In this document: positions 2,387-64,000 of the stretch, one piece after another
Layout: every line of letters starts with the position of its first letter
Position numbering within the stretch: the stretch's first letter is position 1
Source of the DNA: Ewingella sp. CoE-038-23
GTDB lineage: Bacteria; Pseudomonadota; Gammaproteobacteria; Enterobacterales; Enterobacteriaceae
DNA length: 64,000 nt
NCBI RefSeq assembly: GCF_040419245.1
Contig: NZ_JAZHOH010000001.1
Coordinates: 2,418,001 to 2,482,000 of the forward strand
Direction of reading: 5' to 3'
Notes under the pieces: generated by a model
The model's input: only the letters and a program-made list of their open reading frames with translations
What the model was told of the DNA's origin: nothing
The model's database searches: none
Program-made: the position numbers and the translations under genes

Positions 2387-3133
2387 ATGAACGACAGACA
2401 GCAGATTATTTTGCAATGGGTGAATGATAAACAGCGGGTTAGCGTCAGCACGCTGGCGCAGGTATGTCAGGTATCAGAAGTGACCATTCGCCATGATCTG
2501 ACTTTGCTCGAAGGGCGCAACTATCTGCGCCGAGAGCACGGATTTGCCGTGGCGGTGCAGACCGATGATGTGGACCAGCGCATGATGTCCAATTTTGGCC
2601 GCAAGCAAAAGCTGGCCCAATATGCCGCGTCGCTGATCCAAGAGGGTGAAACCGTATTTTTCGAAAGCGGCAGCAGCGTCGCGCTGTTGGCGCAATATCT
2701 GAGTGATAAGCGCAGCCTGACGGTGGTCACGGTCAGCAGCTACATCGCCACCCTATTAAAAAGCATGCCGTGCGAGGTGATTTTGCTCGGCGGGATGTAT
2801 CAGAAAGCCAGCCAGACGCTGGTCGGCCCCCTGACCAAACTCTGCTTGCAGCAGGTCAACTTCAGCAAAGCATTTATTGGTATCGACGGCTATACCCCTG
2901 AAACCGGCTTCACCGGCCGCGATATGCTGCGCGCCGACATCGTCAACGCCGTGCTGGCCAAAGGCGTGGAAAATATCGTGCTGACCGATTCCAGCAAGTT
3001 TGGACAGATCACCGGCCACTCCCTCGGCCCTATACGTCACGTCAGCCGGGTGATCACCGATGACCAACTTGCCGTCCCTGTGAGGCAGCACCTGACCAGC
3101 GCCGGGATTGCGGTAGATTGCATCAGCCAATAA
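2387..3133 (+). CDS. yciT: DeoR-family transcriptional regulator YciT
   Basis: A 248-residue DeoR/GlpR-type regulator. The N-terminal winged helix-turn-helix (about residues 1-55) carries the family pattern SEVTIRHDLTLLE. The C-terminal sugar-phosphate-sensing domain includes FFESGSS and the conserved VLTDSSKFG. Sequence and length match E. coli YciT, and the neighbour osmB is the same as in E. coli, where YciT has been linked to osmotic-stress control. The ATG at 2387 gives the standard N-terminus. Its position straight after a glycyl radical enzyme gene is not the E. coli arrangement and could mean local regulation of that gene, which is inference only. Confidence 0.9.
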   Translation: MNDRQQIILQWVNDKQRVSVSTLAQVCQVSEVTIRHDLTLLEGRNYLRREHGFAVAVQTDDVDQRMMSNFGRKQKLAQYAASLIQEGETVFFESGSSVALLAQYLSDKRSLTVVTVSSYIATLLKSMPCEVILLGGMYQKASQTLVGPLTKLCLQQVNFSKAFIGIDGYTPETGFTGRDMLRADIVNAVLAKGVENIVLTDSSKFGQITGHSLGPIRHVSRVITDDQLAVPVRQHLTSAGIAVDCISQ

Positions 3134-3438
3134 TGAGGTTTTTGTGCTTTGACCCAAAGACTTTGCAGTGAATTAGGACTATTCACCTAGTGCAAAAATG
3201 CCAATTTCATTAGTTTTATTCCACTGGGTCGCTATTGCGCCCGGTGAAAATGTGAAATTGAGCAAGTTGAGATAACTGTTTGACCCACTCTGAATATTGT
3301 TAGTTTTTCGCGGAGGTCTCGCGTTAAACACCCAGGTGATAGCGGCAATATTGCGTTGGTTAATTTCTCAGCGAAATATTGGTTATTACCTATACTTATG
3401 AGTGTGTCGGAGAGTTAATCCTATTAAGGAGAGTTACC
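3134..3438 (+). promoter_or_regulatory. osmB upstream region with sigma-S-like -10 and RcsB-like box
   Basis: Gene-free stretch of 305 bases between yciT and osmB. A CTATACTT element at 3390-3397 fits the extended sigma-S -10 pattern and would start a transcript about 35 bases before osmB. Further up, at 3174-3189, TAGG and CCTA flank ACTATTCA in the way an RcsB box would. In E. coli, osmB has one sigma-S promoter and one Rcs/osmotically controlled promoter, so both elements are expected; neither assignment is proven here. Confidence 0.4.
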
Positions 3439-9326: not shown

Positions 9327-12002
<2,676 letters not shown>

Positions 12003-12192
12003 AGCTTCTCCTTTTTATAACGCTTATCTTTCAGACTTCTGTTCTTTCTCAATGCTTTTCAAGGCGTTTTTACCTCAAAAAGTGCAAAGCGGGTGAAAGA
12101 CCAATAACCGGACGGTCAATAAGTCCACTTATAAAGATAACACAAATTCTGGTTAACATTTTGATAACAACACGAAGTGTTCATCACTTGCC

Positions 12193-58480: not shown

Positions 58481-59329
58481 ATGCCGCAACAAAATATACA
58501 AACTAAGGTATTACGCACCATTTGCCCGGATGCTAAGGGCCTGATCGCCAAGATCACCAACATTTGTTACAAGCATGAATTGAACATCGTGCAAAACAAC
58601 GAGTTCGTTGATCACCGCACCGGGCGTTTCTTCATGCGTACAGAGCTTGAAGGGATTTTCAACGATAATACGCTATTGGCCGATCTCGACAGCGCGCTGC
58701 CGAAAGGCTCAGTGCGCGAGTTGCATAGCACCGATCGCCGTCGCATTGTGATTTTGGTGACCAAAGAAGCCCACTGTCTGGGCGATTTGCTGATGAAATC
58801 GGCCTATGGCGGTTTGGATGTTGAAATCGCCGCAGTTATTGGCAACCACGACACGCTGCAAACGCTGGTTGAGCGTTTTGATATTCCGTTCCACTTAGTC
58901 AGCCACGAAGGCCTGACGCGCGAGCAGCATGACAGCGCAATGATGGAGCAAATCGACCAATATCAGCCGGATTACGTGGTGTTAGCGAAATACATGCGTG
59001 TGCTGACGCCGGGCTTTGTACAGCATTATCCGCATCAGGTTATCAACATTCACCACTCCTTCCTGCCCGCCTTTATCGGCGCGCGCCCTTATCATCAGGC
59101 CTATGAGCGCGGCGTGAAAATTATTGGCGCGACGGCGCACTATGTGAATGACAGTCTGGACGAAGGTCCAATCATCATGCAGGACACCATCAACGTCGAT
59201 CACACCTATACGGCAGAAGATATGATGCGCGCCGGTCGTGACGTGGAGAAAAACGTGCTGAGTCGCGCGCTGTATCGCGTACTCGCCCAGCGCGTGTTCG
59301 TTTACGGAAATCGCACCGTTATTCTGTAA
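58481..59329 (+). CDS. purU: Formyltetrahydrofolate deformylase
   Basis: Releases formate from 10-formyltetrahydrofolate, supplying formate for PurT and balancing the one-carbon pool. It has 282 residues: an N-terminal ACT regulatory domain (about 8-85) and a C-terminal formyltransferase-type domain with NIHHSFLPAFIGARPYHQAYERGVK split by the catalytic His, and GATAHYVNDSLDEGPII with the catalytic Asp. As in E. coli, the tyrosine tRNA locus follows. Confidence 0.97.
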   Translation: MPQQNIQTKVLRTICPDAKGLIAKITNICYKHELNIVQNNEFVDHRTGRFFMRTELEGIFNDNTLLADLDSALPKGSVRELHSTDRRRIVILVTKEAHCLGDLLMKSAYGGLDVEIAAVIGNHDTLQTLVERFDIPFHLVSHEGLTREQHDSAMMEQIDQYQPDYVVLAKYMRVLTPGFVQHYPHQVINIHHSFLPAFIGARPYHQAYERGVKIIGATAHYVNDSLDEGPIIMQDTINVDHTYTAEDMMRAGRDVEKNVLSRALYRVLAQRVFVYGNRTVIL

Positions 59330-59519: not shown

Positions 59520-59585
<66 letters not shown>

Positions 59586-59604
<19 letters not shown>

Positions 59605-59826
59605 TCTTAAATACTCCTGCATTACCTCTCAAAAAAACAATCTAAAATAGAATACCGCACTGGGAAGGATGGAGAAGCTTCGATTGAAGGTTCGAGCCGA
59701 GCGAAGCGAGACAGCGTTGCGCAGCAACGACCCGAAGGGCGAGGCCAGCGGCCGAGTAATCCTTCCCCCACCACCATCTCCAAGCATCATGTCTGAGTTC
59801 CTTCTCGATAAAAAAACAATCTAAAA
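59586..59826 (+). repeat. rtT-like tandem repeat duplicating the 3' end of tRNA-Tyr
   Basis: The last 19 bases of tRNA-Tyr plus TCT (59586-59607) recur exactly at 59758-59779, 172 bases later. AAAAAAACAATCTAAAA recurs at 59631-59647 and 59810-59826, 179 bases apart. Inside, GGGAAGGAT (59662-59670) can pair with ATCCTTCCC (59759-59767), and CGTTGC/GCAACG forms an inner hairpin. The E. coli tyrT operon has the same design with 178-base repeats (rtT RNA, tpr). The region 59605-59923 holds nothing else I recognise. Confidence 0.8.
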
Positions 59827-59923: not shown

Positions 59924-62023
59924 CTACCCGAGCTTAATTACCCGATCTGCCGTTTCTATGGTGGATGGCCGATGGGCGATGAAGATCCTGGTGATCTCCA
60001 GTTCGCTGATGGCCTGATTAATCTTGGATTCATTATCCAGATCTAAATGGCTGGTCGCTTCATCAAGGAACAGAATCGCCGGGCGACGGTAGAGCGCGCG
60101 GGCAATCAATAACCGCTGTTTCTGGCCGCCAGACAAGCTGTTGCCCAGTTCGCTGATCAGCGTTTCATAGCCCATCGGCATCTTTTCAATATCATCATGA
60201 ATGTTGCAACGGCGAGCACAATCCACAATGCGCGCCTCATCCTTCTGCTCATCAAAGCTGGCAATGTTCTCGCCAATTGAACCGGCAAACAGCGTGTCGT
60301 CCTGCAACACACAGGCAATACAGCTGCGGTAATTGTTCAAACCGGCGGTAGTAATATCCATGCCGTTAATCAACACGCGGCCCTGCGTAGGCGACAGCAG
60401 CCCGGTCATTATCTTCATCAGCGTGGTTTTACCCTGCCCAGACGGCCCGACAATCGCCACGCTCTCTCCCGCCGCCACGGACAGGTTCAGGCCGTTGATT
60501 AATGGCGCGGACAGGCTGTCATACTGGAACACCAGGTCGCGCACGTCGAGGGACGCCGCCTCGCCGCCGCGCAGCAGTTCGCGCTCGGGCAGGCTCTTCT
60601 CGGTGTCGGTCAGCGCGATATCGGCGATACGATCGCGGTGCAGCGAAAGCATCCTCAGCTGTAAAACCATATTGAGCAGGTTGGCCGCGCGTTCGGAGAA
60701 CTGCCCGCGATAGGTGTTGAAGGCGACAAACATCCCTAATGTCATATGGCCGTCAATCACCTGACTCGCCCCCAGCCACAGCAACGCCACCTGATCGAGA
60801 GTGGCAATCAGCGTATTACCGCCGGCAAACATCATCTCAAACTTAGTCTTGCGCACCGTGGCATTGGCGTTATCAATGTTCATATTGAGCCAGAAGTTGG
60901 CGCGCGTCTTCGACAGCCCCAGCGCCTTCAGGGTACTTATGCCATACAGGGTTTCCATAAAGTGGGAACCGGCACGGGCGCTTTTGACGATTTGCTCCTC
61001 GGACACCTGCCGATAGGCGTTATAGGTCGAAAGCCTAAAGATGACGTAAATCGCGGTGAAGCCAAGAATGACCCAAATCAGCCAGCCGCCGTACAGCACC
61101 ATCATCACAATCAGGCCGATGGACATGATGCCGTCGATAATACTGTTGACCACGTTGGTGGTCAGCGTAGTGCGTAGCGTGTCGAGAGAGGTAAAGCGCG
61201 ACTGAATATCGCCCAGTTTGCGCTTCTCGAAATAGTCCAGCGGCAGCTTGAGCAGGTGGTCAAACAGCCGCGCTTTCCACTGCACGTCAATCAGCGTACT
61301 CATCACCAAAGAGGTCCAGGCGCGCAGCATGCTCACGCCGGTGCGGAAGATGATGAAGAACAGCAGCCCGAGGCAAATCAGGGTCAGCAGGTCGGGGTCT
61401 TTGGCGGGGATCACGTGGTCCATGACCAACTGCATGCCGACCGGCAGTAGCAGGTTGACCGACTCAATCATCAGCGATAGGCAGAAAATCTTGGTCAGCG
61501 CGGGGATTAAGCCACTGACGTTGCCCATCATTTTGCGCAGATTCAGGCGAACGCGCGGCTTTTCCGAGGTAAAGCCGCTGTCCGGCCACAGCTCCAGCGC
61601 CACGCCGGTGAAATGTTCAGACACCTCGCGGATACCCAGCGAGCGCTGACCAAAGGCCGGGTCGTGAATAATCACTTTGCCCTGCTTCACTGCCACCAGC
61701 ACCACGAAATGGTTAAGATCCCAGTGCAGAATGCAGGGGGTTTTCAGCGCATTCAGCTCATCAATGTCGAGCTTAAGGGCGCGAGACTTCAGCTCCACCG
61801 AGGTGGCAATATCCATCAGGGTGCGCAGGGTCGCGCCACGAGATGAAATGCCAAAACGCTGGCGCAGACTCTGCAAATCAACATGCTTGCCGTGATAACC
61901 GCAGACCATCGCCAGACAGGCCAAGCCGCACTCAGCGGCCTCGGTTTGGATGATTTGCGGGACTTTATGCCGGAAGCCGAAATGCAGACTGTTTGCCAGT
62001 TCGCGCACGTTATCGAGATTCAT
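59924..62023 (-). CDS. Microcin/bacteriocin ABC exporter with C39 peptidase domain, CvaB-like
   Basis: Peptidase-containing ABC transporter that cuts the double-glycine leader from a small bacteriocin precursor and exports the peptide. It has 699 residues (CvaB of colicin V about 698). The N-terminal C39 domain (1-145) has the full triad: Cys32 in TEAAECGLACLAMV, His105 in DLNHFVVL, Asp121 in HDPAFG, the same numbers as in CvaB. Six membrane helices follow (about 160-430), then the ATPase with Walker A GPSGQGKTT, LSGGQKQRL, and ILFLDEATSHLD. I start at 62023 (MNLDNVREL), overlapping the fusion protein gene by 14 bases; a start at 62041 is less likely. The substrate is probably the peptide encoded at 63871. 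Confidence 0.93.
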   Translation of the reverse strand: MNLDNVRELANSLHFGFRHKVPQIIQTEAAECGLACLAMVCGYHGKHVDLQSLRQRFGISSRGATLRTLMDIATSVELKSRALKLDIDELNALKTPCILHWDLNHFVVLVAVKQGKVIIHDPAFGQRSLGIREVSEHFTGVALELWPDSGFTSEKPRVRLNLRKMMGNVSGLIPALTKIFCLSLMIESVNLLLPVGMQLVMDHVIPAKDPDLLTLICLGLLFFIIFRTGVSMLRAWTSLVMSTLIDVQWKARLFDHLLKLPLDYFEKRKLGDIQSRFTSLDTLRTTLTTNVVNSIIDGIMSIGLIVMMVLYGGWLIWVILGFTAIYVIFRLSTYNAYRQVSEEQIVKSARAGSHFMETLYGISTLKALGLSKTRANFWLNMNIDNANATVRKTKFEMMFAGGNTLIATLDQVALLWLGASQVIDGHMTLGMFVAFNTYRGQFSERAANLLNMVLQLRMLSLHRDRIADIALTDTEKSLPERELLRGGEAASLDVRDLVFQYDSLSAPLINGLNLSVAAGESVAIVGPSGQGKTTLMKIMTGLLSPTQGRVLINGMDITTAGLNNYRSCIACVLQDDTLFAGSIGENIASFDEQKDEARIVDCARRCNIHDDIEKMPMGYETLISELGNSLSGGQKQRLLIARALYRRPAILFLDEATSHLDLDNESKINQAISELEITRIFIAHRPSTIETADRVIKLG

Positions 62024-63296
62024 TGATCGGCCCCACCACACTTTTCTTCATGCTGTAATACGGAGATAGCATCCACTGATAGAGCGGGCGTTTTTCGAGG
62101 AACATCGTAGACTCCGCTTTCATGCCACTGGATAAATTGAGCGTTTCGCCATGCCAGTTGAGCTGGCTTTTATCTAAGGAAACAATCACTTTGTAATAAG
62201 GCCCGCTGACCGTGCCATTAGGGTTCTTCGGCGCGCTAGAGTAAGAGTTCAGCTCCTGCTCGGACACCGGCGCAGAGGAAACGGACTCCACTCTTCCGGG
62301 GAACTGGCCATATTTTTCAAACGGATAGGCTTCGTAGCGAATATTGATCTCCTCCCCCGGCTTGACGTAAGGCACGCTTTCATTCGGCAACCATGCCACC
62401 AGGAAGAAAGGTGAATTCTTGGCCGGAACCAGCTGCGCCAGACTGTCACCGGCATTGACCATCTGCCCCGGCGTCACGCTGAGTGAGGAGATCTTGCCGT
62501 CGGTCGGCGCGGTGATCAGCAGCGAGCCTTTAGCATCGGCCTCGGCCAGCTGGCGGTCTAAGTCATTGCGCTGCACGCCGTACTGCGAAATCTGGTTGTC
62601 GAAATCGGCGGCGCGGGTCACCAGCTCGCTGCGCAAGTTGGTTATCTGCAATGACTCTTGGATGGATTGCGTATTAAGGCTTTGGAAGGAGGTTTGCTGT
62701 TGATAGAACAGATAGCGCTGGTTATTCAGCTGATCGGTATTAATTAATCCCTTGCGCTGATACGCGCCATAGTTCTGCATGCTTTTTTTCATCGCATCCA
62801 GCCCTTGCTGTGCCGACGCTACCATGTCCTGCGACACCATGTGCGCCTTCTCATACTGCTCGAGCTGCTGCTGCAAATTGTCCAGCGTAGTGCGCTTGTT
62901 GTTTTGCAACTGATTGATGATGGTGTCTATCTGGTCACGCTGTTTATTAATCGCCGACAGCGTGGTGGTGCTGACATTACCTGCCTGGGTCACCCGGCTG
63001 ACGTCAATCTGATACAGCGGCTGGCCCTTTTTGACCGTTTTGCCGGTTTCCACCATCAGATTAGTGATCACACCCTGCTCCGGACTGAATAAATTAATGC
63101 TATGAGGCTGGGTGATCACTTCGCCACTCACATTAATTCGGCGAGTGTAATTGGAGAAAATCAAGAAACTGAGCAGCGCGATAAGAAAGAGAGCAGTCAG
63201 CGAGGTGACCACCCAAACCGGCCACCCCGCTAACAGAAGTGCCTTACCGGCCCAGTGGTTCTGTTGATGTTCATTTACTTCTTTACGAAAGAGCAT
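62010..63296 (-). CDS. HlyD-family membrane fusion protein, CvaA-like
   Basis: Periplasmic adaptor of 428 residues that links the ABC exporter to an outer-membrane channel, normally TolC, which is not encoded here. One membrane helix (about residues 25-50, VWVVTSLTALFLIALLSFLIF) is followed by a half lipoyl motif, a long coiled-coil hairpin (about 100-250, INKQRDQIDTIINQLQNNK), the second lipoyl half (ITAPTDGKISSLSVTPGQMVNAGD), and a beta-barrel end. It is the first gene of the export operon, overlapping the transporter gene. A perfect 11-bp inverted repeat lies 13 bases before its start. Confidence 0.92.
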   Translation of the reverse strand: MLFRKEVNEHQQNHWAGKALLLAGWPVWVVTSLTALFLIALLSFLIFSNYTRRINVSGEVITQPHSINLFSPEQGVITNLMVETGKTVKKGQPLYQIDVSRVTQAGNVSTTTLSAINKQRDQIDTIINQLQNNKRTTLDNLQQQLEQYEKAHMVSQDMVASAQQGLDAMKKSMQNYGAYQRKGLINTDQLNNQRYLFYQQQTSFQSLNTQSIQESLQITNLRSELVTRAADFDNQISQYGVQRNDLDRQLAEADAKGSLLITAPTDGKISSLSVTPGQMVNAGDSLAQLVPAKNSPFFLVAWLPNESVPYVKPGEEINIRYEAYPFEKYGQFPGRVESVSSAPVSEQELNSYSSAPKNPNGTVSGPYYKVIVSLDKSQLNWHGETLNLSSGMKAESTMFLEKRPLYQWMLSPYYSMKKSVVGPINESR

Positions 63297-63870
63297 CTAG
63301 CTTAACCCTCAATGAACATGATGTTGAAACCTCTGGATAATGTTCATTGAAAGATAGTCAGGGGTGGGTTAAGTGGCAACTGTGATTCCTCTGAAATAGA
63401 TGAATTTATTGATAAAGTTGACCTCTGCTTTATTTATCACCAATTTAAAAGTATCGGCTCTAATATTCAATCACGCTGCGTGAATATTTCCTTTGCTGAT
63501 TATCTGCTAAGCAATAGCAAAATAGTTATATCAATCTAGGCTTTAAATAAACAAAAACTAAACAGGTTGATCAGCGGGAAATAGACATTTTCGCAATGCT
63601 CTCATCAGCTTATTTAATAATCACTAAGAATGATGAATGACGGATAAATATAAATATCAAAAAAAATAAAATTTTAATTATTTTAAAATCAAGAAATTAC
63701 ATAGATATTACATTTATGGAGATTATTCCTAATCCCCTCAGCCGCTGAGTGTCCTAGGCTTAAGTCACATGAAGACATGAGTACGAAACAAATATCTTTC
63801 TTACTCCTGTATTCATCGGATCTCAGGACGTCGGGATCTCAGTTTTCACAAACTAAGAGGATGACCCAAG
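63297..63870. promoter_or_regulatory. AT-rich divergent region between the microcin exporter and the precursor gene
   Basis: 574 bases, clearly richer in A+T than the rest of the window. TCAATGAACAT (63309-63319) and ATGTTCATTGA (63340-63350) form a perfect 11-bp inverted repeat next to the exporter start. GGATCTCAG occurs twice (63818-63826 and 63834-63842) just before the precursor, and CTCAG/CTGAG forms a small hairpin at 63737-63749. No further gene is seen. I could not assign promoters with confidence. Confidence 0.5.
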
Positions 63871-64000
63871 ATGAAACAGTTAACAGAACGTGACATTGAA
63901 ATGGTTAATGGTGCTGGTTGGTCGGAAGATGTAAATAAATTTGCTGACCGCCTGTCAAACTTTGGTCAAAAAGCGGTAGATGATACCAGTAATGCGGTAA
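63871..64000 (+). CDS. Microcin precursor with double-glycine-type leader, 3' partial
   Basis: The frame begins MKQLTERDIEMVNGAGW and is cut by the right edge after 43 codons. The first 15 residues fit the leader consensus of class II bacteriocins: Leu at -12, Asp at -8, Ile at -7, Val at -4, then Gly-Ala before the cut. Colicin V also has a 15-residue leader. The mature part would start GWSEDVNKFADRLSNFG and is hydrophilic so far. AAGAGG lies 10 bases before the ATG. It is divergent from the C39 exporter that should process it. I do not recognise the mature peptide. An immunity gene is expected to the right. Confidence 0.85.
   Translation, partial: MKQLTERDIEMVNGAGWSEDVNKFADRLSNFGQKAVDDTSNAV

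Follow-up and report, generated by a model that had tools for sequence, protein, structure and literature searches.

The window, by which we mean the whole 64,000-nucleotide stretch of DNA that was analysed, ends inside a small gene for a precursor peptide that starts with ATG at position 63,871 of the forward strand and has the first 43 of its 63 codons within the window (63871..64000, +, on to window-equivalent 64062). The frame is free of stops up to the last base of the window (64000), and reading the same genome past the window end (L002:6872-7063, equal to window-equivalent 63871-64062) places the stop at 64062. Because the stop comes after 63 codons, the gene product is a small peptide, as the initial annotation had proposed from the truncated frame, and a long protein is ruled out. 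A ribosome-binding site, GAGG, is found at 63857..63860 (+), positions -14 to -11 from the ATG, and a terminator-like hairpin with a T-run follows 3′ of the peptide stop (L002:7128-7156). The precursor divides into a 15-residue leader, MKQLTERDIEMVNGA, and a 48-residue mature part, GWSEDVNKFADRLSNFGQKAVDDTSNAVNKAYGQISDALGKANDYLTT (GWSEDV…YLTT). Every consensus position that had been claimed for a double-glycine (GG) leader is present in the sequence, namely Leu at -12, Asp at -8, Ile at -7, Val at -4 and Gly-Ala at -2/-1. The leader pattern also arises by chance, with a mean of 1.0 match per window at a ribosome-binding score of at least 2 in 20 mono-shuffled 64-kb windows; what is beyond chance is the combination of the leader with an adjacent exporter, a constrained frame and its occurrence in all 20 genomes examined from two genera.

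The gene order in the window's genome is purU, tRNA-Tyr with an RtT element, exporter (-), hlyD (-), peptide (+), ycjF (-) and ycjX (-), where purU, ycjF and ycjX are the names that we presume from the protein sequences. To the left of the locus, purU (58481..59329, +) is separated from the exporter by tRNA-Tyr (59520..59604, +) and the adjoining RtT RNA element (59520-59776 for the two together). To the right, beyond the window, a convergent ycjF lies 124 bases past the peptide gene, with the terminator-like hairpin in between. Of the 15 named loci with a relative of the peptide, 14 have the ycjF-ycjX pair on the right of the peptide gene (L036, the remaining one, is cut), and so does the more diverged locus L070. 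On the other side, purU lies left of the exporter in the window's genome and in L023, L034, L035, L037 and L070, and the tRNA-Tyr with its RtT element also occurs in L023, L034, L035 and L070. The tRNA-Tyr/RtT element was not found in L037 or in the Rahnella loci scanned, and no purU was found within about 2.2 kb of the exporter in nine Rahnella loci (L025-L033); two longer Rahnella stretches (L088, L089) have as left neighbour a hemB-like gene. Synteny on both flanks in all relatives is ruled out, the right side being common and the left different: the conserved block is the exporter-peptide unit plus ycjF-ycjX, with a rearrangement on the exporter's left side.

A CvaB-type exporter and its partner

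Two genes on the reverse strand diverge from the peptide gene. One encodes an HlyD/CvaA-type membrane fusion protein of 428 aa (62010..63296, -; Pfam HlyD_3, 2.7e-18) and the other a CvaB-type ABC transporter containing a C39 peptidase, 705 aa long from GTG (59924..62041, -; Pfam Peptidase_C39, 1.4e-37, plus ABC domains); the matches of both are over the Pfam cut-offs and under the curated NCBIfam cut-offs of the best-matching models. The divergent CvaB/CvaA-like pair previously read at this place is borne out: the distance from hlyD start to peptide start is exactly 574 bases, and Pfam, NCBIfam and a 57.4% identity to annotated CvaB across 99% of the length agree. The nearest named relatives of the exporter are microcin exporters, MchF (58.9%) and CvaB.

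The catalytic residues of CvaB are numbered Cys32, His105 and Asp121 in PMC9746304, and numbering the exporter from an ATG at 62023, six codons in, gives Cys32, His105 and Asp121 as well (38, 111 and 127 from GTG). The His, Asp and Gln of the C39 domain are kept in 51 of 51 aligned exporter ORFs, a set that was selected by a pattern demanding the Cys and in which L088-L090 duplicate L025, L030 and L026. An HlyD-type gene adjoins the exporter in 14 of the 15 named loci, the remaining one (L024) being cut by a contig end. TolC-type proteins are available in the genome, where 14 of 15 listed stretches match the outer membrane efflux family PF02321 above its cut-off. The export parts by which a class II microcin system is recognised were thus all found, that is, a precursor with a GG/GA leader, a C39 exporter with its catalytic residues, a membrane fusion protein and TolC-type proteins.

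Promoters and 5′ RNA

Conservation in the 574-base intergenic region is confined to short blocks. One of these, GGAGATTATTCCTA (63718..63731, +), precedes the peptide promoter and resembles the RcsAB box, sharing with the consensus TaAGaatatTCcta (PMC4325325) 11 of its 14 bases and 4 of its 5 key bases. It is identical in 13 of 15 Ewingella/Rahnella-type loci, with variants in L036 and L037, and in all 15 it lies exactly 23 bases before a -10-like TAGGCT or TAGTCT. The -10-like element of the peptide promoter, TAGGCTTAA (63755..63763, +), is conserved across loci, being found in this form in 13 of the 15 and as TAGTCTTAA in the other 2, with TAGGCTAGA in L070; the hexamer is about 100-112 bases from the start codon. 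TAGGCTTAA resembles an extended -10 of sigma-S, which makes a sigma-S reading of CTAGGCTTAA a tentative one.

A similar arrangement faces the other way. The RcsAB-box-like block TCAGAGGAATCACA (63381..63394, -), aligned as a conserved block in 16 loci, precedes the promoter of hlyD and the exporter. This TCAGAG-type block has 8-9 of 14 consensus bases in 15 loci (8 in the window's own) and 11 of 14 in L070, as located with a pattern demanding four of the five key bases. It stands 23-24 bases before the -10-like TATCTT (63351..63356, -) in 16 of 16 loci, all of which conserve that element. A distance of 23 leaves room for a spacer of 17 bases and a -35 slot of 6, so that each block would directly adjoin the -35. 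Across the approximately 128,000 positions on both strands of the window, seven sites have at least 11 matches and four key bases, the peptide-side block included. No enrichment of RcsAB-like blocks was seen before other GG peptides (3 of 35 at 11/14 matches, compared with 13 of 175 shuffles), and in L070 the peptide-side block is farther off, the best other box (12/14) lying 210 bases before the start codon and away from the promoter. The gene for RcsF is present in the genome. From these sequences we infer that both promoters may be under Rcs control.

RNAalifold placed two hairpins in the 5′ untranslated region of the peptide, the first (63769..63816, +) with 14 pairs, of which 5 have changes on both sides, and 94.4% of cells paired, and the second (63819..63838, +) with 4 consensus pairs, of which 1 has changes on both sides. 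Over 14 distinct rows, 94.0% of the cells are paired; shuffles reach 87.7% and slid versions of the structure no more than 49.2%. Six pairs have both-sided changes, compared with a shuffled mean of 2.7. All of these are numbers that the relatedness of the rows inflates. Further pair types (11) are no higher than in shuffles (10.6). A known RNA family was rejected for this region, given that the single Rfam match, to mir-54, is far under the cut-off and was taken as chance.

Distribution and selection

Named relatives of the peptide occur in 15 loci at 79-94% identity, from Rahnella (10), Ewingella americana (2), 'Hafnia psychrotolerans' (1), a metagenome-assembled Enterobacterales genome (1) and Enterobacterales bacterium AwEntero (1). 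Counted by genome, in a sample that overlaps with these loci, the peptide is present in all 6 genomes from the genus of the window (its own counted) and in 14 of 14 Rahnella genomes, and a matching exporter at an identity of at least 93% is found in all 20. Peptide and exporter lie within 2 kb on one contig in 19 of the 20; in G326 they are on two contigs, and in G004 the contig ends inside the exporter. By comparison, the GG peptide of L069, which sits in the window's genome beside a different exporter, is present in 2 of the 20, so that the locus studied here behaves like a core gene of the two genera and the L069 peptide like an accessory one. A diverged copy (L070) was found in one genome of a third genus (G246), beside purU and ycjF-ycjX, with no match to the peptide in five of the six genomes of that genus. 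Weak matches in other genera were read at six loci and discarded; L010, L015 and L021 are GG-leader peptides with unrelated mature parts.

The precursor has no family in Pfam or NCBIfam. A search of 72,556 plasmid records at E 0.1 gave no match, which speaks against a plasmid-borne microcin. These results agree with the earlier impression that the mature part is unlike known microcins. Relatives in protein databases number 12 in all, from Rahnella or Rouxiella where the source organism is given, and carry the names 'chemotaxis protein' or 'hypothetical protein'; a protein of Rouxiella sp. Mn2063 has 68% identity to the peptide. The label 'chemotaxis protein', publicly attached to the homologs P0005, P0007 and P0013, is probably a mislabel of a long helix, as neither Pfam nor NCBIfam finds a chemotaxis domain in the window's copy.

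Nei-Gojobori comparisons gave dN/dS values of 0.10-0.28 for the mature part in 14 of 14 cases, with a dN of 0.037-0.170 for the mature part and 0-0.028 for the leader; all 14 use the window's copy and are therefore not independent, and L024 and L070 are left out. These ratios indicate that the mature part is under purifying selection. Among relatives, the precursor (79-94% identity) evolves faster than the exporter (93-99%), yet it is clearly constrained.

Properties and predicted fold of the mature peptide

Across seven family rows the mature part has a charge of -2 to -3, a GRAVY of -0.58 to -0.72, a best 19-residue hydropathy of -0.28 to -0.40 and no Cys; Gly makes up 4 of the 48 mature residues. 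The C-terminus, GKANDYLTT, is without the Ser-rich tail for siderophore attachment that marks class IIb microcins. Candidate peptides beside related exporters are mostly hydrophobic and many are glycine-rich: GRAVY is above -0.3 in 36 of the 37 other rows, two of which are doubtful reads (a second parse in L071 and the MLAAH row of L072), and L107 (-0.67) is the sole comparable case. The 44 rows in this comparison have a ribosome-binding score of at least 3 and a leader with M followed by K/R/I/L, one row per mature sequence. These criteria exclude L068 and L098, whose score is 2, as well as the MQSQ rows from L075 and L077 and, for identity of the mature part, rows in L088 and L090.

When the whole 48-residue chain is treated as a helix, its hydrophobic moment is matched by 0 of 2000 shuffles. 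AlphaFold2, given 15 sequences, predicts a leader helix at residues 6-14 and a single helix at 17-62 (mean pLDDT 75.5, pTM 0.40), with ten-residue blocks at 59 for residues 11-20 and 72-89 beyond; confidence is moderate, the five models ranging from 57.1 to 75.5. On this prediction, the mature peptide likely folds as a single long two-faced (amphipathic) helix. The peptide of the diverged relative (L070) is 4 residues shorter, approximately one helical turn.

Search for an immunity gene

According to PMC9746304, a class II microcin cluster includes its cognate immunity protein, which as a rule is encoded close by and has membrane helices. The initial annotation had looked ahead to a membrane immunity protein of 60-120 residues in the same direction as the peptide, and here it was not borne out. 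Downstream no such gene was found: the 124-base gap holds the terminator-like hairpin and ends at the convergent ycjF. The gaps of the locus contain three ORFs of at least 30 aa, all of them non-hydrophobic. Hence, no adjacent cognate immunity protein was found by hydropathy, a type of scan that immunity genes can evade, as they also can by sitting elsewhere.

The gaps of 16 loci hold 65 ORFs of at least 30 aa, whose ribosome-binding scores are all 0 except for a single 2. No hydrophobic ORF is common to all 16; eight loci have at least one in their gaps (best 19-residue hydropathy >1.6) and eight, the window's own included, have none. In a control, the same kind of listing for the ColV plasmid showed cvi beside cvaC with a hydropathy of 2.19 and a ribosome-binding score of 0, and because cvi also scores 0 the ribosome-binding score alone cannot exclude an immunity gene. 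A wider panel comprised 41 loci, of which 31 were scored, the other 10 being without a passing GG peptide within 2.5 kb of the exporter. A hydrophobic short ORF, judged on hydropathy only, lies within 600 bases in 16 of the 31, and one that also has a ribosome-binding score of at least 3 in two (L071 and L105). Immunity genes may thus often be missing among these exporters. For the present locus alone this makes the argument weaker, and for the exporter group as a whole it makes it broader.

Interpretation

On balance we lean towards an export-processed amphipathic-helix peptide with a communal surface role, following an EbfG-like logic and not one of killing rivals. Fixation in two genera, purifying selection on the mature part and its hydrophilic, acidic helix are more in keeping with a conserved secreted factor than with a bacteriocin. 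An RcsAB-box-like block stands right before the -35 of each of the two divergent promoters, which would switch peptide and exporter on together. The peptide mRNA would open with approximately 100 bases, counted from the putative start site, in which two conserved hairpins may tune translation. Judging from what is known of the family, the C39 domain, which has its Cys, His, Asp and Gln, would cut after Gly-Ala and remove the 15-residue leader; meanwhile the 48-residue chain would be exported by the transporter together with the HlyD-type adaptor and an outer membrane protein of TolC type. Outside the cell, the acidic amphipathic helix may lie along membranes, LPS or its own kind, and the communal role at cell surfaces could be in attachment, biofilm or envelope protection. 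Self-poisoning seems to be no problem, because the peptide has no membrane-spanning stretch and no partner immunity gene was found. The fuller picture, in which a genus-fixed, immunity-free non-bacteriocin system uses a stress-switched (Rcs-type) private exporter to coat the community with a 48-residue helix, is offered as a tentative possibility, nearer to doubtful than to probable.

The main rival is a class II microcin of a new sequence family, in which the exported helix kills related bacteria and immunity comes from a gene elsewhere, from a modified target or from the exporter. It takes this place because the export parts are microcin parts (a GG-type leader, a CvaB-type exporter with its catalytic residues and MchF and CvaB as nearest named relatives, an HlyD partner, TolC-type proteins in the genome) and because like candidates sometimes inhibit E. 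coli: for Serratia marcescens class II candidates, PMC13101503 reports inhibition of an E. coli secretor by 12 of 40 and of S. marcescens strains by 7 of 40. Neither is the absence of an immunity ORF special here, given that a well-supported one is rare among related exporter loci too. Against this stand the missing immunity ORF in the locus itself, an acidic and hydrophilic mature part without matches on plasmids, and conservation and fixation of the peptide in two genera, whereas microcin cores are described as highly variable (PMC9746304). The microcin precursor of the initial annotation therefore stands as a GA-leader peptide beside its own C39 exporter, and its naming as a microcin sits poorly with a fixed, constrained and hydrophilic peptide that has no immunity ORF; overall we hold a microcin to be less likely than not.

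Less probable again is a peptide pheromone: after export, the 48-residue chain would bind a receptor encoded at another place in the genome and so inform the cell about its density or the state of the envelope. In Gram-positive bacteria, signals are exported by C39 transporters such as ComA, which is one of the solved structures matched here. A conserved peptide of secreted type with a conserved promoter pair and no immunity ORF found would suit a signal; 48 residues is long for a pheromone, however, and no sensor gene is found among the nearest neighbours purU, tRNA-Tyr, ycjF and ycjX. That there is no real gene, only a leader-like pattern next to an orphan exporter, draws on the rate of about one such pattern per shuffled 64-kb window. 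We give it next to no credence, and a chance ORF is ruled out by conservation and selection: the frame persists in all 15 named loci and all 20 genomes with a dN/dS well under 1, and it comes with a conserved promoter, a ribosome-binding site and, in the window's locus, a terminator-like hairpin. The difference on the left flank leaves the probabilities of all these readings unchanged, because neither the right flank nor the occurrence in all 20 genomes is affected by it.

Comparison with known systems

The communal surface role that we favour takes its model from the EbfG1-4/PteB system of Synechococcus elongatus, in which small proteins with a GG motif leave the cell through a C39 transporter and have a role in biofilm formation (PMC4997328); the word 'immunity' is absent from that text. 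EbfG comprises four peptides, compared with one here, and comes from a cyanobacterium, and the likeness is drawn from the published description. MccV (colicin V, CvaAB) shares with our locus the GG-type 15-residue leader, an exporter at 57.4% identity to CvaB with the same three catalytic positions, an HlyD partner and an adjacent peptide gene. In contrast to MccV, the present locus has no immunity gene that we could find, is chromosomal and is fixed in two genera, and its mature part is hydrophilic and acidic, without a hydrophobic stretch, a Ser-rich tail or Cys (seven rows).

CdzC and CdzD probably have a type of export like that of our system. They are contact-dependent bacteriocins of Caulobacter, described as small surface-associated glycine-zipper proteins (PMC5380434), whereas the present peptide has 4 Gly in 48 residues. 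Closer at hand are two chromosomal Enterobacterales pairs, L079 and L081, which have the same leader type, an adjacent peptide and exporters that are 68% and 66% identical to ours. Their peptides are also widely kept, being present in 5 of 6 genomes in the genus of L079 and in 4 of 4 in that of L081, and differ from ours in mature parts that are glycine-richer and hydrophobic (GRAVY 0.51 and 0.59).

A literature search returned no paper joining 'double-glycine leader', microcin and Rahnella. Class IIb microcins are reported as active against Rahnella, among others (PMC11634061), and a microcin E492 cluster was predicted by antiSMASH in R. perminowiae (PMC10946135). Rahnella and Ewingella are absent from the main text of PMC9746304, PMC13174018, PMC13101503 and PMC11494933, whose supplementary lists may hold the peptide. 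Within the literature searched, the peptide seems to be undescribed, and the locus has microcin-type export without the immunity gene proper to a microcin cluster. In surveys, a C39 exporter with a GG leader next to it counts as a candidate microcin. A locus present in every examined genome of two genera, with no immunity gene detected and with a peptide that is conserved and hydrophilic, argues that part of this microcin inventory does something else. If this is true, similar fixed pairs in other genera would form a widespread, overlooked layer of enterobacterial surface and social biology that is now mined as microcins. Non-bacteriocin roles of such Enterobacterales peptides become directly testable, given a small locus and plain predictions, namely a cut after Gly-Ala, shared control of the two promoters and a phenotype when the peptide is lost.

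Other loci with GG peptides

The hydrophobic ORFs listed around L079 and L081 are all without a ribosome-binding score. The window's genome has a second C39/HlyD exporter at L068 (G000:C2:172000-191000, 2981-3295), which is 64% identical to the one studied here. At some 3.5 kb from its hlyD gene there is a GG-leader peptide whose tail contains Pro and Cys (PAITSGCPHY); a plasmid record of Ewingella americana holds an exporter that is 64.5% identical. A third exporter of the window's genome, at L069 (G000:C1:4167000-4186000, 11650-12159), is 61% identical and goes with two tandem GG peptides that are 58% alike. L071 (G143:C1:2340000-2359000) has a tandem pair of C39/HlyD exporters, with five GG-leader peptides between and beside them.
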